From: an uncultured Bacilli bacterium
Lineage (GTDB): Bacteria; Bacillota_I; Bacilli_A; RF39; UBA660
Assembly (NCBI GenBank): GCA_947629405.1
Contig: CANRDL010000009.1
Location: forward strand, 1-37,065
Reading direction: 5' to 3'
DNA length: 37,065 nucleotides
Positions 3,497-19,658 of the stretch are shown here, one piece after another (the stretch's first letter is position 1; every line of letters starts with the position of its first letter). The notes under the pieces are model-generated. The model did no database searches. It was not told the DNA's origin and saw only the letters and a list, made by a program, of their open reading frames with translations. The position numbers and the translations under genes are program-made.

Positions 3497-3898
3497 CTAT
3501 TCTTTTGGGATTAAGGCTGTTACCTCTATTTCTATTTTTGAACCTTTTCTAACAAATCCTCCTACTTCTACCATTGTAGATACAGGCATTGAATTTTTAA
3601 AATATTCTGCTCTAATAGGTGATACTATTTCAAAATCATTTATATCTTTTAAATATATAACAGCTTTAACTACATCATCTAAAGATGCCCCTGCTTCTTT
3701 TAATATACCACCTATTTCTTCAAATACTAATTTTGTTTGTTCTCCTATATCATCTGTTACTACTTCATTAATTTCTCCAGCTGGTGCTTGCACTCCTGAT
3801 ACGAATATTAAGTAAGAGTCACCCAAATCAATCTTTTTTGCTGGAGTATAAACTCCTTTCATAACATAACCTTTTGGTTTTATATTTTCTATTTTCAT
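3497..3898 (-). CDS. RidA/YjgF-family protein lacking the catalytic arginine
   Basis: 133 aa, full family length, with the usual pattern YTPAKKIDLGDSYLIFVSG, DDVVKAVIYLKDINDF and KGSKIEIEVTAL. RidA proteins are trimeric and hydrolyse reactive 2-aminoacrylate and related imines. In the canonical enzyme an Arg sits in PARS just before VEVA; here the segment is MPVSTMVEVGGF, so that position is Ser107 and the imine-deaminase Arg is missing. This points to a non-deaminase Rid subgroup. Start ATG 3898 with an AGGAGG site. It is the gene directly downstream of secA, where prfB is found in many Firmicutes, and is bracketed by repeats. Confidence 0.85.
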   Translation of the reverse strand: MKIENIKPKGYVMKGVYTPAKKIDLGDSYLIFVSGVQAPAGEINEVVTDDIGEQTKLVFEEIGGILKEAGASLDDVVKAVIYLKDINDFEIVSPIRAEYFKNSMPVSTMVEVGGFVRKGSKIEIEVTALIPKE

Positions 3899-3941
3899 TT
3901 TTTAATATTCCTCCTTTTTATTAAAAATTATCATAAAATGT

Positions 3942-3995
3942 TCCCATTGAGAAACCCTTGATTTTACGGGGTTTTTTGGCATTTTTGGGAACAAA
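3942..3995. other. Nested inverted repeat between secA and ridA
   Basis: Outer arms TGTTCCCA and TGGGAACA enclose inner arms AAACCC and GGGTTT. On the plus strand the inner arm is followed by TTTTTT; on the minus strand (the direction of the genes) there is no T tract. It may be a cruciform or recombination site rather than a terminator for secA. Confidence 0.4.
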
Positions 3996-4095
3996 TTATA
4001 TTTTTTGTGCACATTTTGAACACATTTTTCAATTTTTTTGGGTTTTTTTATGATTTTTTCGAAATTCTATGCCTCGCAAACCCTTATTAAACCTA

Positions 4096-6591
4096 CTACT
4101 TACCACAGCAATTTTTATACTTTTTACCACTGCCACAAGGACAAGGTTCATTTCTACCAATCTTTTTTACTCTTGTAGGTTTGTTCTTTTTCGCTTTTTT
4201 ACTATTGCCTTCTTTTAAAGTTTGTTTTCTTTCTACATCAAGTCTTAGTTGAGCTCTAAGTAAAAAGACAGCAATCTTATCATCTATTTCAGCAAGTAAA
4301 TCTTCAAATGCTTCAAATCCTTCCATTGTATAAGCTTGTAATGGATTTATTTGACCATAACCTCTTAAGAAAATTCCTTCTCTTAAATGTTCTAAGTTAG
4401 CGATGTGATCTACCCAAGAAGTATCTATTACTTGTAATGAAATAGCTTTTTCAAATTCGGCAACTACCTCTACAGGAATATCTTTAATTTTATTTTCATA
4501 ATTTTCTATAACTTTTTTATAAATTAATTCTTTTACTTCTTCTACTGATTTTCCTTTAAAATCTTTAGCCTTAAATTCATCTTTATCGATTATAATCAAA
4601 CTATTATTTATATGTTCAGCAATATCTTTATTATCATCATCAGTTAGATATCCTTCTGGTTCGATATGTGATTCAACTATATGTTTAATAGAATTTTTAA
4701 TTGATTCATATGCTCTTTTTCTTATATCTTCACTTTCCAATATTTCATTTCTTCTAACGTAAATAATTTCTCTTTGTTCATTAATTACATCATCATAATC
4801 AAGTAAAGTTTTACGAGCATCAAAGTTATTTCCTTCAACTTTTCTTTGAGCAGTCTCTATACTTTTAGTAAACATTTTAGAACGGATTGCTTGATCATCA
4901 ACTACACCAACACTTTGAATTAGGTTTTTAATCTTATCAGAACAGAATCTCTTCATTAAATCATCTTCAAATGATACAAAAAATTGAGATGATCCTGGAT
5001 CTCCTTGTCTTCCAGAACGACCACGAAGTTGGTTGTCTATACGACGAGCTTCATGCCTTTCTGTACCTATTACAAATAATCCACCAAGTTCTTTAACGCC
5101 TTTTCCTAATTTTATATCTGTTCCACGACCAGCCATGTTAGTAGCAATCGTTACTGCACCTTTTTCTCCAGCTTTAGCTATAATTTCTGCTTCACGAGCA
5201 TGATTTTTAGCATTTAAAACTTCATGAGGAATTTTTTCCGCTTTTAATAATGCACTTAACTTTTCATTTGATTCAACTGATATTGTACCAACTAGTATTG
5301 GTTGTCCTTTTGCGTGTAAAGCTTTTATAGTTTTAATTATAGCTTTAAATTTTCCTGCTTCTGTTGAATATACTAAATCTGCTAAATCTTCACGAATAAC
5401 GGGTTTATTAGTTGGAATTTGAATAACATACATGTTATATAAATTTCTAAATTCTTCTTCTTCTGTTTTAGCTGTACCTGTCATACCAGAAATTTTATTG
5501 TACATTCTAAATAAGTTTTGGAATGTAATAGTAGCCATAGTTTTAGTTTCTTCATTGATTTTTACACCTTCTTTAGCTTCTATAGCTTGATGTAAACCTT
5601 CAGAAAATTGTCTACCATGCATTAAACGTCCTGTAAATTGATCAACTATAATTATTTGACCATCTTCTATTACATAATCTACATTTAAACTCATTCCATA
5701 ATTAGCTTTTAATGCTTGATTAATATGGTGAACAAGGGCACTATTATCTAAATCATATAAATTATTCAAATGTAAAATAGATTCTAACTTTTTACTTCCC
5801 TCTTCAGTTAATGAAACAGTTTTTTGTTTAAGATCAACATTATAGTCAACTTCATTTTTTAATTTTTTTACAGCTTTATCAGCATCAATATATAAATTTT
5901 CGGCATTAAATCTTCCACCAGAAATAATAAGTGGCGTACGCGCTTCATCAATTAATATAGAGTCAACTTCGTCAATAATAACATAATTTAGTTCTCTTTG
6001 AACTTTATCTTCTATACGAGATACCATGTTATCTCTTAAATAGTCAAAACCAATTTCATTGTTAGTTGAATAAACTATATCACATTTATATACCTCTTGT
6101 TTTTCTTTAGATGATAAATCTTTTTTATTTTTTCCAACAGTTAGTCCTAAAAATCTAAAAATATCACCAACCATTACATCGGCAGCCACGTCAACTAAGT
6201 AATCGTTAACTGTTACAATGTGAACACCTTTTCCTGTTAAGGCATTTAAATAAGCTGGCATAGTTGCTACTAAAGTTTTACCTTCACCAGTTTTCATCTC
6301 GGCAATATTACCATAGTGAAGAGCTAAAGCTCCAATTATTTGTACTTTAAATGGTTTTTGTTTAATAGTTCTCCATGCTGCTTCTCTTACAACAGCAAAT
6401 GCTGGCACGATTAATTCATCTAAATCAATTCCATTTTTTATAAGGTCTTTAAATTCATCAGTCTTAGCTTTTAATTCTTTATCAGAAAGTGATGCTATTT
6501 CATCTTCCATTTCTAAAACAGAATCGGCAATAGTTTCAAATTTTGTTAGTTCCTTATATTCTGAATCAATTAACTTTTTTAAAAATTTCAT
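4096..6591 (-). CDS. secA: SecA preprotein translocase ATPase
   Basis: 831 aa, normal length. It is the motor that pushes preproteins through SecYEG. Visible landmarks: Walker A MKTGEGKT (residues 101-106), the DEVDSILIDEARTP block near 205-220, GTERHEARRIDNQLRGRSGR in the second helicase domain, and a basic linker followed by the C-terminal SEC-C zinc motif GRNEPCPCGSGKKYKNCCGK (Cys817, 819, 828, 829) used for SecB, lipid or ribosome contact. Ends with two TAG codons. Start ATG 6591 after GAGGTGA. hpf lies upstream with its own terminator, so secA is probably transcribed alone. The 3' end of this gene is the source of, or is related to, the tail copies at 1463-1515, 2311-2352 and 3224-3290. 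Confidence 0.98.
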   Translation of the reverse strand: MKFLKKLIDSEYKELTKFETIADSVLEMEDEIASLSDKELKAKTDEFKDLIKNGIDLDELIVPAFAVVREAAWRTIKQKPFKVQIIGALALHYGNIAEMKTGEGKTLVATMPAYLNALTGKGVHIVTVNDYLVDVAADVMVGDIFRFLGLTVGKNKKDLSSKEKQEVYKCDIVYSTNNEIGFDYLRDNMVSRIEDKVQRELNYVIIDEVDSILIDEARTPLIISGGRFNAENLYIDADKAVKKLKNEVDYNVDLKQKTVSLTEEGSKKLESILHLNNLYDLDNSALVHHINQALKANYGMSLNVDYVIEDGQIIIVDQFTGRLMHGRQFSEGLHQAIEAKEGVKINEETKTMATITFQNLFRMYNKISGMTGTAKTEEEEFRNLYNMYVIQIPTNKPVIREDLADLVYSTEAGKFKAIIKTIKALHAKGQPILVGTISVESNEKLSALLKAEKIPHEVLNAKNHAREAEIIAKAGEKGAVTIATNMAGRGTDIKLGKGVKELGGLFVIGTERHEARRIDNQLRGRSGRQGDPGSSQFFVSFEDDLMKRFCSDKIKNLIQSVGVVDDQAIRSKMFTKSIETAQRKVEGNNFDARKTLLDYDDVINEQREIIYVRRNEILESEDIRKRAYESIKNSIKHIVESHIEPEGYLTDDDNKDIAEHINNSLIIIDKDEFKAKDFKGKSVEEVKELIYKKVIENYENKIKDIPVEVVAEFEKAISLQVIDTSWVDHIANLEHLREGIFLRGYGQINPLQAYTMEGFEAFEDLLAEIDDKIAVFLLRAQLRLDVERKQTLKEGNSKKAKKNKPTRVKKIGRNEPCPCGSGKKYKNCCGK

Positions 6592-6614: not shown

Positions 6615-6644
6615 ATTTTACCATGTTTTAAGCTAACTTTACAA
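6615..6644 (-). promoter_or_regulatory. Predicted secA promoter
   Basis: TTGTAA (6644-6639), 18-nt spacer, TAAAAT (6620-6615) with an upstream TG. Located between the hpf terminator and the secA start. Confidence 0.5.
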
Positions 6645-6670
6645 CTTAATTTATTAAATAAATTAAAAAA

Positions 6671-6703
6671 GAAGCTATTTAACATTTAAAATGCCATAGC
6701 TTC
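6671..6703 (-). terminator. Intrinsic terminator of hpf
   Basis: Arms GAAGCTAT and ATAGCTTC followed by TTTTTT on the minus strand; the hairpin overlaps the hpf stop codon. Confidence 0.8.
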
Positions 6704-7202
6704 CATCTTTTCTTGTATATAATACTGATACACATTCCTCATCTTCATTTTTAAATACAAAAAAGTCATGCCCTATTAAATCCATTTGTAATATTGCCTC
6801 TTGTTCGTCCATTGGCTTTGATTCTACATCTTTTCTTCTTACTATCTTATTTGTATTCTCTTCTTTCTCTTCAAAATTTAATACAAATTCATCTTCTTCA
6901 TAATTCTTATATTTATCTTTTAATCTTGTTTTATTCTTTCTTATTTGTCTTTCTAATTTATCTATTACTAAATCGGATGCTGCATATAAATCACTGTGAC
7001 TTTCTTCAGCTCTTAATGTGTATTTCTTTGTCGGTATTGTTACCTCTATTACTTGTTCTTTCCCTTTTATTTTTACTAATACATATGCTTCTATTTCTTC
7101 TGCTCTTTCTAAATATTTATCTAGTTTTGTTATCTTCTTTTCGATGTACTCTTTTATTGGCGCTGTTATCTTTATTTTCTCTCCTCGGATATTTACTTTC
7201 AT
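6675..7202 (-). CDS. hpf: Ribosome hibernation promoting factor, long form
   Basis: 175 aa from the ATG at 7202. The N-terminal domain (MKVNIRGEKIKITAPIKEYI...) is the S30AE/YfiA fold that occupies the tRNA and mRNA sites of the 30S subunit; the C-terminal domain (VRRKDVESKPMDEQEAILQMDLIGH...YGILNVK) dimerises ribosomes into 100S particles, as in long HPF of Gram-positives. The start is set by GGAGG 8 nt upstream; a further upstream in-frame ATG at 7223 overlaps the promoter -10 and cannot be used. secA follows, the usual neighbour. The gene sits between two terminators and so is a single-gene unit. Confidence 0.96.
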   Translation of the reverse strand: MKVNIRGEKIKITAPIKEYIEKKITKLDKYLERAEEIEAYVLVKIKGKEQVIEVTIPTKKYTLRAEESHSDLYAASDLVIDKLERQIRKNKTRLKDKYKNYEEDEFVLNFEEKEENTNKIVRRKDVESKPMDEQEAILQMDLIGHDFFVFKNEDEECVSVLYTRKDGSYGILNVK

Positions 7203-13548: not shown

Positions 13549-15393
13549 TTAGTTTTCTTTTTTAATAAATATTTTATCTAATTTTTCTTTAATTTCATCT
13601 TTCCTAAAAGGTTTTGCTATATAATCTACAAATCCTTCTTCAATGTATTTTTCTTTTGCTCCAGTTATAGCATCAGCAGTCAAGGCGATAACTGGCGTAT
13701 TGAATCCAGGTATTTCTTTTAATTTAAGTAAAGCTGTCTCTCCGCTCATATTTGGCATCATTATGTCCATTAAAATTACATCATATTTTTTTTGTTTTAC
13801 TTTTTCTAAACAACTTAATCCATCATTACATTCATCAATTTCCATATCAAAGTCTCTTAAAGCAATTTTTGCCACCTTTATATTTAAAGCATTGTCATCA
13901 ACAATTAAAACCTTTTTGTTTTTATAATTATCTTCATTGTTTTCTTCTTTTGATTTTAAGTCTATATCTGGCATTTCTTTGGTGTGTATTCTTTGAGGTA
14001 TTTGAACCATAAAAATTGATCCTTGGTTATAATTACTTGATACATTTATTTTACCATTCATTAGTTCTACTAATTTTTTAGTAATTGCAAGGCCTAGCCC
14101 TGTTCCTTCTGTTGTTGAGTTTTTCTCAATATCTAATCTTTCAAATTTAGTAAATAATTTACCTATATCTTCTGCTTTAATTCCTTTACCAGTATCTTGA
14201 ACACTAATTATAAGCAAACATATATCATTTTTATTTATACACTTAGCATTTATATTTATAAAACCTTTATCTGTATATTTAATGGCATTTGATATTAAAT
14301 TATTTAATACTTGCTTAATATGAGTTCTATCACCATATAAATAATCTGGAATGTCATCTGCTATATTTACATTATATTGAATTGGTTTATCACCAATTCT
14401 TACTTTATTTATTTTAGCAATTGAATTTAATTCTTCTTTAAAATTATAAACACTTTCGACAAGTTTCATTTTTTCACTTTCAATTTTATTAATATCTAAA
14501 ATATTACCAACAATTTCCAATAAAGTATGTGAAGCTTCAACTATATCTTTAGAATCTTCTTTTACTTCATCTGGTACATTATCATATGTTAATATATCAT
14601 CTGATAAACCAACAATAGCGTTTAAAGGCGTTCTTATTTCGTGGGACATACTTGATAAAAAATCACTTTTTGCTCGATTAGCTTTTTCGGCAGAGTCTTT
14701 GGCAAGCTCTAATTGATTAATTATTTTGACATCAGGATTTTCAATAGTATGGTACATTATAAATGTAATTAGTATTGTACACGGATTTACTATGTAATTT
14801 AATGTTGGAAAAATTATTTGAATTAATACAGCTAAGCCTCCAAAAACAACAAAAAAATATATTGGAAAATATTTTTTACTTCCAATATTTTTACGATCAA
14901 TTATTATAAAAATAATGTCAATTAAAAGCAAAATAAACATATATAAATATACAAAATAAATTGAAAGTCCTGAAGCTACAGCTCCAATTTCTGAAATATT
15001 AACTTCTATTGGCAATATCAGTACAATCATTTCAATTATAGTTAATATTAATAGAGACAATTTTAAAAATAAATTATAATTTTTATTTTCATTTTTTATA
15101 AAACTTATATAAATTGTATAAAAGGTTAAAATGCTACTCCATATGACTAATACAAATAAATAAAGCTTGTTTAAAGTTTTAATCATTAAAGCACTAAAAT
15201 TTGAATTAGGAAAAACAGCCAGTCCAAGTGCAATACCTAAAATAGTAGAAATAATGTTAGAAATCAAAAAAAACGAATACGTTCTGTCCTCAACTTGATG
15301 TAATCTTTTCTTTTTGAAAAAAATCACAGCAATTATTATAATTACAATCAAAGCATAAACATTCAAAGTTATAAAACCATAAATATTATTCAT
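13549..15393 (-). CDS. Hybrid histidine kinase with 7-TM sensor and receiver
   Basis: 614 aa. Residues 1-215 form about seven membrane helices with no extracellular domain of note. Then HisKA (SMSHEIRTPLNA, His251), HATPase_c (N369 in LISNAIKYT, DTGKGI at 400, GTGLGLAI at 430), and a C-terminal receiver (VLIVDD at 499-500, phospho-acceptor Asp543 in ILMDIMMP, Lys in IAKPF). No PAS or HPt domain and no separate response regulator next to it, so phosphate must pass to an HPt or regulator elsewhere, or the receiver acts as an inhibitor. The ligand is likely to be a membrane-soluble or envelope signal. Start ATG 15393 with AGGATAGTGG; a TATAAT-like -10 near 15434 suggests its own promoter after the upstream terminator. 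Confidence 0.93.
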   Translation of the reverse strand: MNNIYGFITLNVYALIVIIIIAVIFFKKKRLHQVEDRTYSFFLISNIISTILGIALGLAVFPNSNFSALMIKTLNKLYLFVLVIWSSILTFYTIYISFIKNENKNYNLFLKLSLLILTIIEMIVLILPIEVNISEIGAVASGLSIYFVYLYMFILLLIDIIFIIIDRKNIGSKKYFPIYFFVVFGGLAVLIQIIFPTLNYIVNPCTILITFIMYHTIENPDVKIINQLELAKDSAEKANRAKSDFLSSMSHEIRTPLNAIVGLSDDILTYDNVPDEVKEDSKDIVEASHTLLEIVGNILDINKIESEKMKLVESVYNFKEELNSIAKINKVRIGDKPIQYNVNIADDIPDYLYGDRTHIKQVLNNLISNAIKYTDKGFININAKCINKNDICLLIISVQDTGKGIKAEDIGKLFTKFERLDIEKNSTTEGTGLGLAITKKLVELMNGKINVSSNYNQGSIFMVQIPQRIHTKEMPDIDLKSKEENNEDNYKNKKVLIVDDNALNIKVAKIALRDFDMEIDECNDGLSCLEKVKQKKYDVILMDIMMPNMSGETALLKLKEIPGFNTPVIALTADAITGAKEKYIEEGFVDYIAKPFRKDEIKEKLDKIFIKKEN

Positions 15394-15450: not shown

Positions 15451-15475
15451 AAAAAAAAGCATCTAATTGATGCTT
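15451..15475 (-). terminator. Intrinsic terminator of the ANL ligase gene
   Basis: AAGCATC-AATTA-GATGCTT followed by T8 on the minus strand, right at the stop codon. Confidence 0.85.
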
Positions 15476-17484
15476 TATTTTTTCAATGTTTTTTGTATGC
15501 CACCATAATAAACCTTAATAGCTCCAACTGCCATATTAGTTTCTTGAATTTCGACATTAATTTCAGTTCCGTCTATACCTTCATTTATTAATTCATTATA
15601 ATTAACTTTTGAATTTTTTGTTAAAGGCAATGCTGCCCTAAATTTAAATTTTGAAGGTATTTGCCTTGAAGACATAACAGGATTTGCAATTATTTGATTT
15701 TCAATTATTTCCTTAACTATATCAACATAATCTTCATCATTATAAACAGTAACACTATTATTTAAAACTATGTGTGCAACTGGCATGTTTCCTCTTTGTT
15801 TTTCGTCAAAATAATAAACTATTCGGCAATATTTAACTTTATTATTTTTTTCAATTTCTTTTTCAATTTCAGCAGGTTTCACTTTATATCCATCAAATCT
15901 TGTAAAAGATCTATCTTTTCGAGCCTCAAAAAAGAAAACTCCATTTTTATTCATTTTTACTAAATCCCTTGTACGAATATAAGTCTTTCCATCCATTTCA
16001 TAATGTCTAACAATTTCTTTTCCATGTAATATTCCAGAAGTCACAGCATCAGACGATACAACTAATTCTCCAGAAATAAAACCATTTTCATCAGGTGTAT
16101 TAATTGGAACTAACCTATCCTCAATATTTGGGTCAACTATTCCATAAATAGTATGGGGAAATGGAATTCCTATTGATTCGTAACAATTCCACTCATTTGT
16201 TGCATAAGTTCCGCCTCCACAATATTCACTCATTCCGTGACCCTTTTCTGTTATTGCTTTACTACCATGATTTTTAGCCCAATTATTTAATCTTTTTTCA
16301 TCAAAAGCATTCATTGAGTCACCACCATATATAATCCTAGTTACTTTTGATAAATCTTCTTTTTCTAAATATTTACAATCAGGTAATGAAGCTAACCAAG
16401 CTGGAGTTCCTAAGAATACATTTGGGTGATACTTTTTTATTAAATATCCAAATTCATTTATTTCAAATTCTGGAACATCAATCAAATTTGCTCCACATGC
16501 TAAATCTATTAAAAAATTATTACATGCTCCAAGTGGTGAAAAATATGGCAATTCATGAATTACTTTATCTTTTTCCTGTACTCCATACCCACCAGCAAGA
16601 GTTTGCTCAGTAGAATTTATTAAATTAGCATTAGTTAGTGGTATTGGTTTTGGTTGGGCACCACTGGTTCCAGAAGTATGTCCTATATAATTTATTAGAG
16701 AACTATCTTTAACTTCCGTAAAACGTTCATATTTAGTACCATTAATTAAGTCTTTGTATTTAATAATTTCAATTGGAGAACTTTTAATTGCATTTTTCAA
16801 ATCCTTTTTATCTTTTGACATTTCTTTAATTTTTTCAAGCAAAGCTTCATAAAACTTCAGTTTTTTTACTGCTTCATTTGCTAATCTCTCATTTCTTAAC
16901 TGATTATATTTTATAACATCTTTTAAATAACTAATAATACCTTTTATATTCATTGAATCGCTAGCCGATAAAATAATTATATTTTCCATGCCTAATTCTT
17001 TTAATTCATTTTCAATAGGCTTTATCATGTGTGTATAACATTTATCTAGTGCAATAATATAATCTGCTTTTTCATCTTTAATAAGTTCTAAAATTTTTTT
17101 GGCATTTGCTTTCAAATCCATAGAATCTGGTCTTGGATCAACAAAATCAGATATAGCACCTATTTGTGAAGCTCCTAACCATATTTGTCCAGCTTCAGGT
17201 ATTGTAGGAACTAAATTAAATAAAATTTTTCCCTTATTTACACCTATTGCAGATAAAGCTTTAGAAGCATCATCGCTCTTTTGAAATATCTCATCATATG
17301 ATATTTCGTTACCATAATATGTTTCTGCTATAAAATTCCTTCTATTTACATTGAATTGTTTTAAATAATCTGTAATATTTGTATTAGGATTATTAATGTT
17401 CAAATTCATTCCTTGATACCATTGCATCCATGGTTTGTCTATATGTGGATAACCTGTTAAATATTTTTCATTATTACTTTGCAT
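15475..17484 (-). CDS. ANL-superfamily adenylate-forming ligase (acyl-CoA synthetase-like)
   Basis: 669 aa from ATG 17484 (GGAGG site 5 nt upstream). These enzymes activate a carboxylate as acyl-AMP. Motifs: P-loop HTSGTSGAQPKPIPLT (residues about 269-284), GHGMSEYCGG, the ribose-binding Asp in YIRTRDLV followed by RKDRSFTRFDGYKVKPAEIE, and the C-terminal catalytic Lys in PLTKNSKVNYNEL. The N-terminal 60 residues (HIDKPWMQWYQGM) and a charged helical insert at about 195-240 are extra. No carrier-protein domain. Substrate unknown; it may be a fatty or aryl acid. It stands alone between two regulated units, next to the hybrid kinase. Confidence 0.88.
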   Translation of the reverse strand: MQSNNEKYLTGYPHIDKPWMQWYQGMNLNINNPNTNITDYLKQFNVNRRNFIAETYYGNEISYDEIFQKSDDASKALSAIGVNKGKILFNLVPTIPEAGQIWLGASQIGAISDFVDPRPDSMDLKANAKKILELIKDEKADYIIALDKCYTHMIKPIENELKELGMENIIILSASDSMNIKGIISYLKDVIKYNQLRNERLANEAVKKLKFYEALLEKIKEMSKDKKDLKNAIKSSPIEIIKYKDLINGTKYERFTEVKDSSLINYIGHTSGTSGAQPKPIPLTNANLINSTEQTLAGGYGVQEKDKVIHELPYFSPLGACNNFLIDLACGANLIDVPEFEINEFGYLIKKYHPNVFLGTPAWLASLPDCKYLEKEDLSKVTRIIYGGDSMNAFDEKRLNNWAKNHGSKAITEKGHGMSEYCGGGTYATNEWNCYESIGIPFPHTIYGIVDPNIEDRLVPINTPDENGFISGELVVSSDAVTSGILHGKEIVRHYEMDGKTYIRTRDLVKMNKNGVFFFEARKDRSFTRFDGYKVKPAEIEKEIEKNNKVKYCRIVYYFDEKQRGNMPVAHIVLNNSVTVYNDEDYVDIVKEIIENQIIANPVMSSRQIPSKFKFRAALPLTKNSKVNYNELINEGIDGTEINVEIQETNMAVGAIKVYYGGIQKTLKK

Positions 17485-17551
17485 AAACGCCTCCAATCTT
17501 TTTTATATAAACCATATTAATATTTTAATTTAAACACCGATATTATTTATA

Positions 17552-17920
17552 TTATTTTTTAACTTTAGCTACACCTTTATCTTTTTCTAATTCAATTTTC
17601 TCTAATATAGTTGGATTATAAGTTTTTCCCTTTACTGTATAACTAACAGTGTCCCCAACTTTTTTATTATATATACTTTCTCCTAGAGGACTATGAATTG
17701 AAACTTCTAAAATTTCGGCATCAAAATCGGGATTATTTTTTACAAGTTTAAGAATAGTTTCACCTAATATAGTTTCTCCCATTTTTTCTAGAATCCTAAC
17801 AACATCTCCAATGTTAATTGTATCATTGTCTAAAACAGTATATGTACAATTTGGATTTTTAGATATTTCTTCTAAACTTTCATCTAATTTATTTTTTTGT
17901 TTTTCCGTTTCGTTTTTCAT
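17552..17920 (-). CDS. Stand-alone GreA/GreB C-terminal domain protein
   Basis: 122 aa. The C-terminal part (DAEILEVSIHSPLGESIYNKKVGDTVSYTVKGKTYNPTILEKI) is the FKBP-like C-terminal domain of GreA/GreB (consensus sPlGkAllgkkvGDevev..p.g...yeIl.I), which docks on the RNA polymerase beta' secondary-channel rim. The N-terminal coiled coil with the acidic tip that triggers transcript cleavage is missing; instead there are about 25 charged residues and an NPNCTYTVLDNDTINIGDVV strand. So it would bind polymerase without cleavage activity, like Rnk- or Gre-like antagonists. Start ATG 17920 with AAGGAG. Single-gene unit with its own consensus-like promoter. Confidence 0.8.
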   Translation of the reverse strand: MKNETEKQKNKLDESLEEISKNPNCTYTVLDNDTINIGDVVRILEKMGETILGETILKLVKNNPDFDAEILEVSIHSPLGESIYNKKVGDTVSYTVKGKTYNPTILEKIELEKDKGVAKVKK

Positions 17921-17983: not shown

Positions 17984-18508
17984 TTATTTTTCAATTTTTT
18001 TAAAACCTGATAAGATAAAACCAACCTTATATATTATTTTATCACTATTTTTAATAGCCACTTGTTTAAATATGGCTTTGCCTCCAACAGTTAAAGCCGA
18101 AATAACAGCAGCAATTAAAACAGTCATTATAGATAATGATAAATTATATCTATTAGAAATAAGTATGCTTAAAGACACTCCTAAAGATCCACTAATAACA
18201 CCACATACATCTCCGACAACATCGTTGCAAATACTTGAGACATTAGCAGAATTTTTAATTAACTCTACAGTTTTAGCTGCTCCTTTTATTTTTTTAGTTG
18301 CCATAGAATGAAAAGTAGATTCTTTACTAGTTAAGGCACTAGTTCCAATCATATCAAATATTATACCCACTATTATAATTAAAAGGGTAAGTAAAATAAG
18401 AATAATCTCATTAAATTTGCTAGCAAAAGCATTGGTTCCAAGACCAAAAATTATTGCCAGAAAAAAAGAGATTATAAATATTTTTACTATCCATCTCTTT
18501 TTATTCAT
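17984..18508 (-). CDS. CNNM/DUF21-like integral membrane protein
   Basis: 174 aa with about four hydrophobic segments: IVKIFIISFFLAIIFGL, IILILLTLLIIIVGIIFDMIG, a middle stretch ICNDVVGDVCGVISGSLGVSLSILI, and LSLSIMTVLIAAVISALTVGGKAI. The sequence FDMIGTSALTSKESTFHSMATKKIKGA with VVGDVCGVISG resembles a short Firmicutes family usually called CorB-like, which covers the DUF21 membrane core but has no CBS or CorC domains. Divalent-metal transport is therefore only a guess. Start ATG 18508 with AAGGAG. It is preceded by a long structured RNA with no terminator in between, so that RNA may be its leader. Confidence 0.65.
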   Translation of the reverse strand: MNKKRWIVKIFIISFFLAIIFGLGTNAFASKFNEIILILLTLLIIIVGIIFDMIGTSALTSKESTFHSMATKKIKGAAKTVELIKNSANVSSICNDVVGDVCGVISGSLGVSLSILISNRYNLSLSIMTVLIAAVISALTVGGKAIFKQVAIKNSDKIIYKVGFILSGFKKIEK

Positions 18509-18544
18509 ATTTTCTCCTTAAATTTTTTGTGTGGTTAATTATAA

Positions 18545-18887
18545 ATTAATTTTACGGCTTTAGGTCGAGTTGAATTTCTCTATTTTCTCTCCTTCGGTTA
18601 CCCTCGGGCGATTTCTCTTTATAGAAAATAATTAACTGTCGCCAAATTAATGACTCGATTGCCACTTAGTCCGCATTTTAATCTTTATAACTTAACACTC
18701 TAGAGGTTTTCCCTAATACATAAATTTTATCATTATTCGCTATAAAAATATAAAATCAATCATTGTATGATCAGTACAATATCTTTATATTTCGCACGAC
18801 ATGTTAAATTATTAACAAGCAGTAGATTTTTAGCCCTACCTTCCGATAATTTTATGTAACTAGAATAGTGCACCACATCAAATTTAT
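18545..18887 (-). ncRNA. Unassigned structured RNA or long leader, about 340 nt
   Basis: A 400-nt gap (18509-18908) has no coding frame but starts with a near-consensus promoter and is clearly richer in G+C (about one third) than its surroundings. Helices visible: (a) 18746-18754 with 18784-18792 (9 bp) capped by ATTGTA/TACAAT; (b) 18607-18611 with 18639-18643 (GGCGA/TCGCC) capped by TTTCT/AGAAA; (c) 18564-18570 with 18653-18659 (7 bp around CGAGT/ACTCG), enclosing (b) and a GGTAACCGAAGG segment, so a multi-branch junction. Landmarks of tmRNA, RNase P RNA, SRP RNA, T-box, SAM, FMN, cobalamin and M-box were looked for and not found. It either leads into the membrane gene at 18508 (no T-tract terminator seen) or is an independent RNA. 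Confidence 0.6.
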
Positions 18888-18893
18888 AGGCTA

Positions 18894-18922
18894 ATTTTAG
18901 CACATTTTTTAAATTTTGTCAA
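18894..18922 (-). promoter_or_regulatory. Strong promoter of the structured RNA
   Basis: TTGACA (18922-18917), 17-nt spacer, TAAAAT (18899-18894) with upstream TG (TGCTAAAAT). The -35 lies inside the end of the GDSL-like gene. The transcript would begin near 18887. Confidence 0.8.
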
Positions 18923-19658
18923 AATTGACAACATTTATAATCTCTTTAGCTATTTGTTTATAACCTTGTTTATTGAGATGAATACTATTACTATTTGGCA
19001 AATATTTTTTATTTTTTCTAATTAAATTATTAGTTTTTATATAAGTAAAATTATATTTATAAGATAATTTATAATATAAATCATCACAGTAGGAAAATAC
19101 TTCATCATATATTTCATTATTTATATAATTCTGATTTGTAAGAGGATTATAAAAGCCAATTACAATTAGTTTTTTATCATAGTCTTTTCGTATTTGTTTT
19201 ATTAATTTTTCTAAATCTTTAAAAAGATTATCCACTTGTTTGTATATATATTCCTCATCTTTAGCTTTTAAGTAAGTATTATTTATTTTAAGTGAATAAA
19301 AAAGGTCTGTCGCTCCAATTGATAAAGTTATTAAATTAGCATTATGAATAGCCTGGTTTATAGAAATTTTTTTATTTTTATATTTTATTTGATAGTTTGT
19401 ATCTATTTGATTTCTTAAATCTTTAATACGCATATCTTTTTTACAAAAATCTTTAGTATAAAACTTAACTTGTCTTTTTTGCGCCAATTCTTCTTTTAAA
19501 TAATCATTGAAAGAAACAGAAATTTTACCACTGGAATTTTCCCCAAGGGCTATTCCATCTCCCAATGCAATAAAATTAACTTTTTTTGTATCAAATTTAT
19601 AATATGCTACAAATGTAAGAGTTATAACTGCCAAAATTATAGGTAATCCTTTTTTCAT
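18909..19658 (-). CDS. SGNH/GDSL-hydrolase-like protein, catalytic residues lost
   Basis: 249 aa. N-terminal signal anchor (LPIILAVITLTFVAYY), then an SGNH fold outside the membrane. Block I reads VNFIALGDGIALGE: the nucleophile Ser of GDS is Gly35 (codon GGA). Block III is SIGATDL: the oxyanion Asn of GxND is Thr117. Block V is NSNSIHLNKQGY: His227 is kept, but the Asp three residues before it is Asn224. Thus three of the four hallmark residues are gone and it should not be an esterase. It may bind a wall or lipid ligand. Start ATG 19658 with GAGGTGA, whose site directly abuts the murA terminator T run. Confidence 0.8.
   Translation of the reverse strand: MKKGLPIILAVITLTFVAYYKFDTKKVNFIALGDGIALGENSSGKISVSFNDYLKEELAQKRQVKFYTKDFCKKDMRIKDLRNQIDTNYQIKYKNKKISINQAIHNANLITLSIGATDLFYSLKINNTYLKAKDEEYIYKQVDNLFKDLEKLIKQIRKDYDKKLIVIGFYNPLTNQNYINNEIYDEVFSYCDDLYYKLSYKYNFTYIKTNNLIRKNKKYLPNSNSIHLNKQGYKQIAKEIINVVNFDKI

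Follow-up and report, generated by a model that had tools for sequence, protein, structure and literature searches.

OLE RNA lacking P5–P8 in RF39 Bacilli and OLE domain 2 carried alone by phage contigs

OLE is a ribonucleoprotein (RNP) RNA and is usually encoded directly upstream of oapA; in Halalkalibacterium halodurans, OapC and bS21 act on its P5–P6 region. To our knowledge, it is among the largest conserved bacterial RNAs without a known biochemical activity, and its domain 2 is the part left unresolved by cryo-EM. The full-length form (Rfam RF01071; H. halodurans, Clostridium) measures about 600 nt, and its RNP contains OapB and OapC. Shortened forms have been described from gut bacteria (Fernando and Breaker 2024, PMC11332333). 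In variant 1 of TANB77, P7–P9 and the P13 end are shortened, and a loss of P5/P6 is not described; variant 2 of RF39 lacks P7 and P8 only, and RF39 genomes are largely without OapB and OapC.

The window analyzed here is a stretch of 37,065 nt (positions 1 to 37,065 of contig CANRDL010000009.1) from an uncultured member of RF39. A cmscan of the whole window against Rfam yielded OLE (RF01071) as the sole match above cut-off: positions 18515–18892 of the minus strand aligned to model positions 1–616 with 136.4 bits (gathering score 50, E 4.7e-36). Two further models beneath the same stretch, snoR28 and MH_s25, reached 22.3 and 17.8 bits, far under the Rfam cut-off, and were rejected as chance. 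The domain-2 model R1, which has the window in its training set, scored this RNA at 146.7 bits. Judged by sequence, the window RNA is OLE in the most reduced bacterial form found in the present analysis, with 378 nt against the typical 600 or so; we label this form, which lacks P5–P8, V3. A sequence-only reading of the same DNA had seen no recognised family and had proposed either a new riboswitch-like leader or an abundant stand-alone RNA. The RF01071 match at 136.4 bits rules out both a new family and a riboswitch-like leader; the second proposal, a stand-alone structured RNA, was right in kind, OLE being an RNP RNA.

Several features noticed in that reading were borne out. The putative promoter consists of a −35 box TTGACA (18917–18922), which lies over the final codons of the GDSL-lipase gene upstream and is conserved in the sister species G001 and G078, and, 17 nt away, a consensus-like −10 box TAAAAT (18894–18899), all on the minus strand; both sister species also have TTGACA-17-TAATAT or TAAAAT. 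No ORF of at least 50 aa lies within 18515–18892, and the G+C content is raised to 30.2% from 25.3% in the window. Nor is there a terminator ahead of the gene that follows: the match to RF01071 stops at 18515, the ribosome-binding site AAGGAG (18514–18519) touches the RNA 3′ end, and the oapA ATG at 18508 follows 6 nt past the end of the match.

V3 shares with full-length OLE the 5′ conserved strand, P1–P4, P9, domain 2 and the downstream oapA, but its P9 is short and it lacks P5, P5.1, P6, P6.1, J6/7, P7 and P8, about 205 positions of the Rfam model (about 74–278) being reduced to 12 nt. In the lost segment lie the k-turn bound by OapC, the site of bS21 and the kissing loops of P5.1 and P6.1 (PMC9723947, PMC12054373, PMC12265935, PMC12286853). 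What stays, all on the minus strand, is P1, P2, P3, P4, the short P9 and the whole of domain 2. The 5′ strand of P1, GUGGU (18872–18876, partner 18531–18535), shows UGGC/GCCA and CGG/CCG exchanges in relatives, and that of P2, CAC-UAU-UCUAG (18860–18870, partner 18696–18703), has eight covarying pairs; in H. halodurans, OapA sites have been mapped to two places, P2 being one of them (PMC12054373). The P3/P3.1 helix, proposed as membrane-spanning (PMC12265935), has its 5′ strand at 18845–18857 and its partner at about 18718–18731 in the minimum free energy (MFE) fold, with sequence changes in G078. The P4 hairpin with its conserved, A-rich CUAAAAAUC loop (18821–18840), evident in both the Rfam alignment and the fold, corresponds to the published dimer contact 1. 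P5–P8 are replaced by a six-bp hairpin, UGUUAA-UAAU-UUAACA (18802–18817), seen in the fold and in the comparison of the three V3 species, across which the stem is kept and the loop differs. Because this small hairpin also replaces region P4a, a mapped OapA site, OapA binding could differ in V3. The shortened P9 arm (18732–18801) ends in a palindromic loop CUGAUCA (18768–18774), which includes GAUC, one of the three palindromes (GGCC, GAUC, AGCU) among which the L9.3 kissing loop alternates (PMC12286853). Domain 2 (P10–P15 and the P1 3′ strand, 18531–18716) is the most conserved part, both between the window genome (G000) and G078 and by covariation.

The loop sequences tell the forms apart. 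L5.1 GCCCA and L6.1 GGCAU were each present in 59 of 59 full-length loci and in 61 and 62 of 62 variant-2 loci, respectively, and in none of the V3 loci, while the P4 loop was found in all V3 and variant-2 loci and in 58 of the 59 full-length ones. Also missing from V3 are the P9-base motifs UGAAA and UGCAAAA, nearly universal in other OLEs. Like variant 1, V3 is a shortened OLE of reduced gut genomes. With variant 2 it has in common the lack of P7/P8, the setting in small-genome gut Bacilli and the missing OapC and, very probably, OapB, but most variant-2 RNAs are its reverse, keeping P5/P6 with both kissing loops and having lost the P9 loop arm. In one variant-2 genus, G030 (loci L023 and L108), P5/P6 occur together with a UGAUCA P9 loop, and an OLE of this type may resemble the ancestor of the reduced form. 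OLE itself and variants 1 and 2 were already known; V3 and the phage form presented below appear to be new, although priority is not certain. Neither an OLE without P5–P8 nor a domain-2-only phage form is described in the open papers searched, and those among them covering OLE RNA and phages do not describe a phage domain-2 RNA.

An alignment-free MFE fold recovered P1, P2, P3/P3.1, P4, the P9 arm, P10 and P11. The fold has a multi-branch junction, as noticed in the sequence-only reading, and the RNA folded better than the majority of its shuffled versions (z = −1.95, with 3 of 100 equally good). Two of the three helices named in that reading have OLE counterparts: 18564–18570/18653–18659 is P12, with all cells paired and three pairs showing double changes across 25 sequences, and 18746–18754/18784–18792 forms the base of the P9 arm in the fold. 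The third, GGCGA/UCGCC at 18607–18611/18639–18643, falls outside the OLE consensus, where GGCGAC is a hairpin loop, and this pairing is not kept in variant-2 relatives.

Covariation was assessed on a domain-2 alignment of 25 sequences (three V3, six variant 2, six full length and ten phage), from which bacterial domain 1 had been removed, using 33 pairs in P1, P2, P10, P11, P11.1 and P12. The covariation that the sequence-only reading had proposed to look for in relatives proved strong: 175 double-change cells were counted versus 47.1 after shuffling, double changes occurred in 24 of the 33 pairs (16.8 shuffled), 98.1% of cells were paired (78.2% shuffled), and the covariation score was 0.628 (0.225 shuffled). 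Sliding the partners by 1–3 columns lowered pairing to 34–41%, in a comparison that favours the 33 pairs over slid versions since they were assigned by reading the alignment. In P2, CUAG/CUAG gives way to CCGG/CCGG in some phages. The OLE consensus helices P1, P2, P10, P11, P11.1 and P12 are supported by covariation in the window's RNA class; the contrast with the shuffles, and how many types of pair occur at each position, are hard to explain otherwise.

The 174-aa CNNM/DUF21-like membrane protein encoded downstream (17984–18508, minus strand) matched Pfam CNNM weakly (16.4 bits, below cut-off) and no NCBIfam model. An alignment with four related proteins served as the query against 84,980 species genomes and gave 359 relatives. 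Among the best 80 of these 359 loci, the distance between OLE and the gene was measured for 62, and the gene started within 200 nt of the RNA in 56; we call the protein OapA because of this synteny. It is 91–92% identical to its counterparts in the two sister species. Also encoded nearby are a hybrid histidine kinase (13549–15393), an AMP-binding acyl-CoA ligase-like protein (15475–17496), a 122-aa protein with a GreA/GreB C-terminal domain (17552–17920) and the GDSL lipase (18909–19658), with murA, an MntP-like pump, spoIIR, prmC and prfA further away.

The other protein partners were searched for across the window's family. OapC (YbxF, L7Ae family) was found in 0 of 47 family genomes, with Bacillus subtilis positive as a control. 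For OapB (YbzG, a small KOW protein), 16 genomes gave KOW proteins of L24 and NusG size only; OapB is therefore very probably absent from the family, as judged by the size and number of KOW proteins rather than by an OapB-specific model. By contrast, bS21 is encoded in 42 of the 47 genomes, including the three with V3, while its P6 site is missing from the V3 RNA. With OapC absent from all 47 family genomes and bS21 kept, the RNA regions would have been lost after OapC, and the bS21 site despite bS21. Two causal links were rejected on this evidence: the P5–P8 loss is not tied to a loss of OapC/OapB in the V3 genus alone, since full-length carriers of the family also lack both, and a loss of bS21 is not its cause, since bS21 is kept.

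The same form with the same junction occurs in G001 (same genus, 381 nt) and G078 (another genus, 378 nt), to whose OLE that of locus L069 is identical; V3 is known from three species only, two of them, judging by the MAG names (Lapin-016 bin23 and bin18), out of one rabbit sample. OLE was detected in 212 of 385 sampled genomes of the order by Rfam and in 217 by R1, and among the matches listed only these three had the V3 form, full-length RNAs measuring about 575–616 nt and variant-2 RNAs about 465–520 nt, with a few intermediate forms. The small genomes and variant-2 OLEs agree with the RF39 order described by Fernando and Breaker (PMC11332333). Other matches scoring as low as V3 were contig ends, and short local matches in G279, G397 and G244, considered as further reduced forms, were rejected on the same ground, as they run off contig ends. 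Two genomes, G026 (L005, L026) and G237 (C37:9232–9824, C101:1296–1892), have two OLE copies each; in G026, where the second copy is cut by the end of its contig, contamination or assembly could be responsible. In a tree of 99 OapA proteins, the full-length carriers separated from a group made up of variant 2 and V3 (support 99), V3 forming a single clade (support 100) nested within variant 2. The simplest reading is one loss of P7/P8 followed by one later loss of P5/P6.

Taken together, we consider it likely, with a probability of roughly 85%, that V3 is a streamlined OLE–OapA particle organized around domain 2, which arose by one P5–P8 loss inside the P7/P8-less branch, in a family without OapC and very probably without OapB. 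The V3 RNA would be transcribed from the promoter-like sequence, with transcription reading into oapA, and would form a membrane particle with OapA through P2/P3/P4. The loop of P4 and the palindrome in the P9 loop may still allow it to dimerise, without the P5.1–P6.1 kissing loops. By analogy with H. halodurans, the particle would serve stress or metal-ion adaptation, without the inputs of OapC and bS21.

One could instead regard V3 as a decaying remnant, a pseudogene on its way out, in line with a score far below the 200–437 bits of its relatives, the disappearance of P5–P8 and of the conserved P9-base motifs, and the lack of detectable OLE in nearly half of the sampled order. The divergence between G000 and G078 speaks against this. 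Only 2 of the 186 positions of domain 2 are changed (98.9% identical) and 18 of 161 in the rest of OLE, as against 55 of 172 oapA third codon positions (32%), and the 400 nt upstream are about 41% identical. Given a domain 2 that is about 99% identical alongside some 30% difference at third codon positions of oapA, V3 does not appear to be decaying. Moreover, the promoter, P1, P2, P3 and the stem of the new hairpin are kept in the three species, in all of which oapA is intact. Decay is thereby improbable, and conservation has already largely refuted it.

Similarly improbable is control of oapA in cis by the RNA, as a leader or riboswitch, which its position directly upstream, on the same strand and with no terminator between, might suggest. 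OLE belongs to a known class of trans-acting RNP RNAs, and the gene taken for a regulated target in the sequence-only reading encodes OapA, OLE's binding partner in studied species. No expression platform precedes oapA at the RNA 3′ end, neither a terminator nor a stem covering the ribosome-binding site being present in the fold, and the Rfam scan found no riboswitch family above cut-off in the window. Domain 2 is, furthermore, present in phages, and a search of 14 of the phage records for oapA found none.

The clean cut, in a family whose other OLEs otherwise keep P5–P6, would also fit a split OLE, with P5–P8 made as a separate RNA elsewhere and assembling in trans. A P5–P6 covariance model, R2, detected OLE in each of nine genomes with variant-2 or full-length forms (83–115 bits), most of them outside its training set, but found nothing in the window, in the rest of G000 or in G001 and only a match with E 0.88 in G078. 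Since R2 detects nine of nine others and nothing significant in V3 genomes, the module was not found elsewhere in them, an absence that is not absolute at 88–94% genome completeness. Rfam, too, shows one OLE place per V3 genome, and a split OLE is very improbable. An assembly artefact deleting a repeat-rich part of a normal OLE is hardly credible, even though all V3 genomes are MAGs, given the same junction in three species of two genera with species-specific substitutions around it.

Domain 2 was also found in viruses. Three DNA patterns from OLE domain 2 were scanned over IMG/VR, and 15 phage contigs (13 distinct sequences), mostly of 75–136 kb, were found to carry OLE domain 2 alone, in about 225 nt. 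These RNAs lie in L149 (1046–1278), L150 (1162–1388), L151 (5362–5595), L152 (1837–2064), L153 (5506–5733), L154 (11602–11830), L156 (5163–5389), L159 (11501–11728), L160 (5063–5290), L161 (1547–1769), L163 (11211–11443), L165 (8137–8391), L167 (2850–3082), L169 (1730–1964) and L204 (5925–6151). At the thresholds used, the scan matches L155, L157, L158, L162, L164, L166, L168, L205 and L206 had no domain 2. Rfam scored 12 of the phage RNAs as OLE at 78.7–124.2 bits, and R1 scored all 15 at 121–192 bits, ten of them being within its training set. The distance from the 5′ motif to ACUAAGUGG is 75–88 nt in ten phage RNAs, compared with about 203 in V3, 310 in variant 2 and 430 in full-length OLE. 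The phage P3 is mostly capped by an AUUA tetraloop, and its pairs exchange (AACAA/UUGUU, GCAA/UUGC, CACAA/UUGUG).

In all 14 examples examined, the phage RNA is on the strand of a tRNA array, and most of the 14 lie no more than 20 nt from a tRNA on at least one side. The genes nearby (topoisomerase II, tail transglycosylase, phrog_850) resemble those of phages. A search for OapA in 14 viral records, which may be fragments, found none; R2 gave no significant match in nine viral records, and blastn gave none for the phage RNA in INPHARED phages or PLSDB plasmids. Mean identity of the phage RNA is highest to the full-length OLE of the window's order (60.6%), which makes an origin there possible. 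ROOL and GOLLD are likewise structured RNAs of large phages beside tRNA genes, but they are separate Rfam families, whereas the phage OLE is about 225 nt long and homologous to a host RNP RNA. One contig, L154, also encodes a ROOL RNA (RF03087, 151.7 bits; 3625–4261) and a tmRNA-like gene (6634–7007). In four contigs, in the regions L151 5600–7520, L152 7992–9509, L161 1770–5767 and L165 8391–11260, the phrog_850 RNA-binding protein (DUF2828 and DUF7788) is encoded downstream. The phage domain 2 is followed by a recurring stretch that begins with GACAAGA and finishes with TCTTGTC, which could be a separate small RNA; Rfam names none.

These forms lead us to suggest, tentatively and with less than even confidence, that OLE is built of two modules with domain 2 as its core, bacteria shedding domain 1 stepwise and large rumen phages carrying domain 2 alone. 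The series would run from full length through the loss of P7/P8 to that of P5–P8, and in the phages a small hairpin would close P3; the job of domain 1 would be anchoring and regulation, and small genomes trim it while phages omit it. Domain 2 seems to be the part that OLE cannot do without, and we think that P1–P2 and domain 2, common to all forms, carry the activity of OLE. If the two-module reading is true, domain 2 would act without a membrane span, OapA or dimer formation by domain 1; it might take part in translation or act as a decoy of the host's OLE particle. This would conflict with models placing domain 2 outside the cell. In this natural deletion series, the k-turn for OapC, the site for bS21 and the P5.1–P6.1 dimer contacts go while P1–P4 and domain 2 stay, and the functional question therefore narrows to domain 2. 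The 350-nt bacterial and 225-nt phage versions would be easier to study than the OLE of about 600 nt, and confirmation of the phage copies would give the first indication we know of that viruses use OLE.
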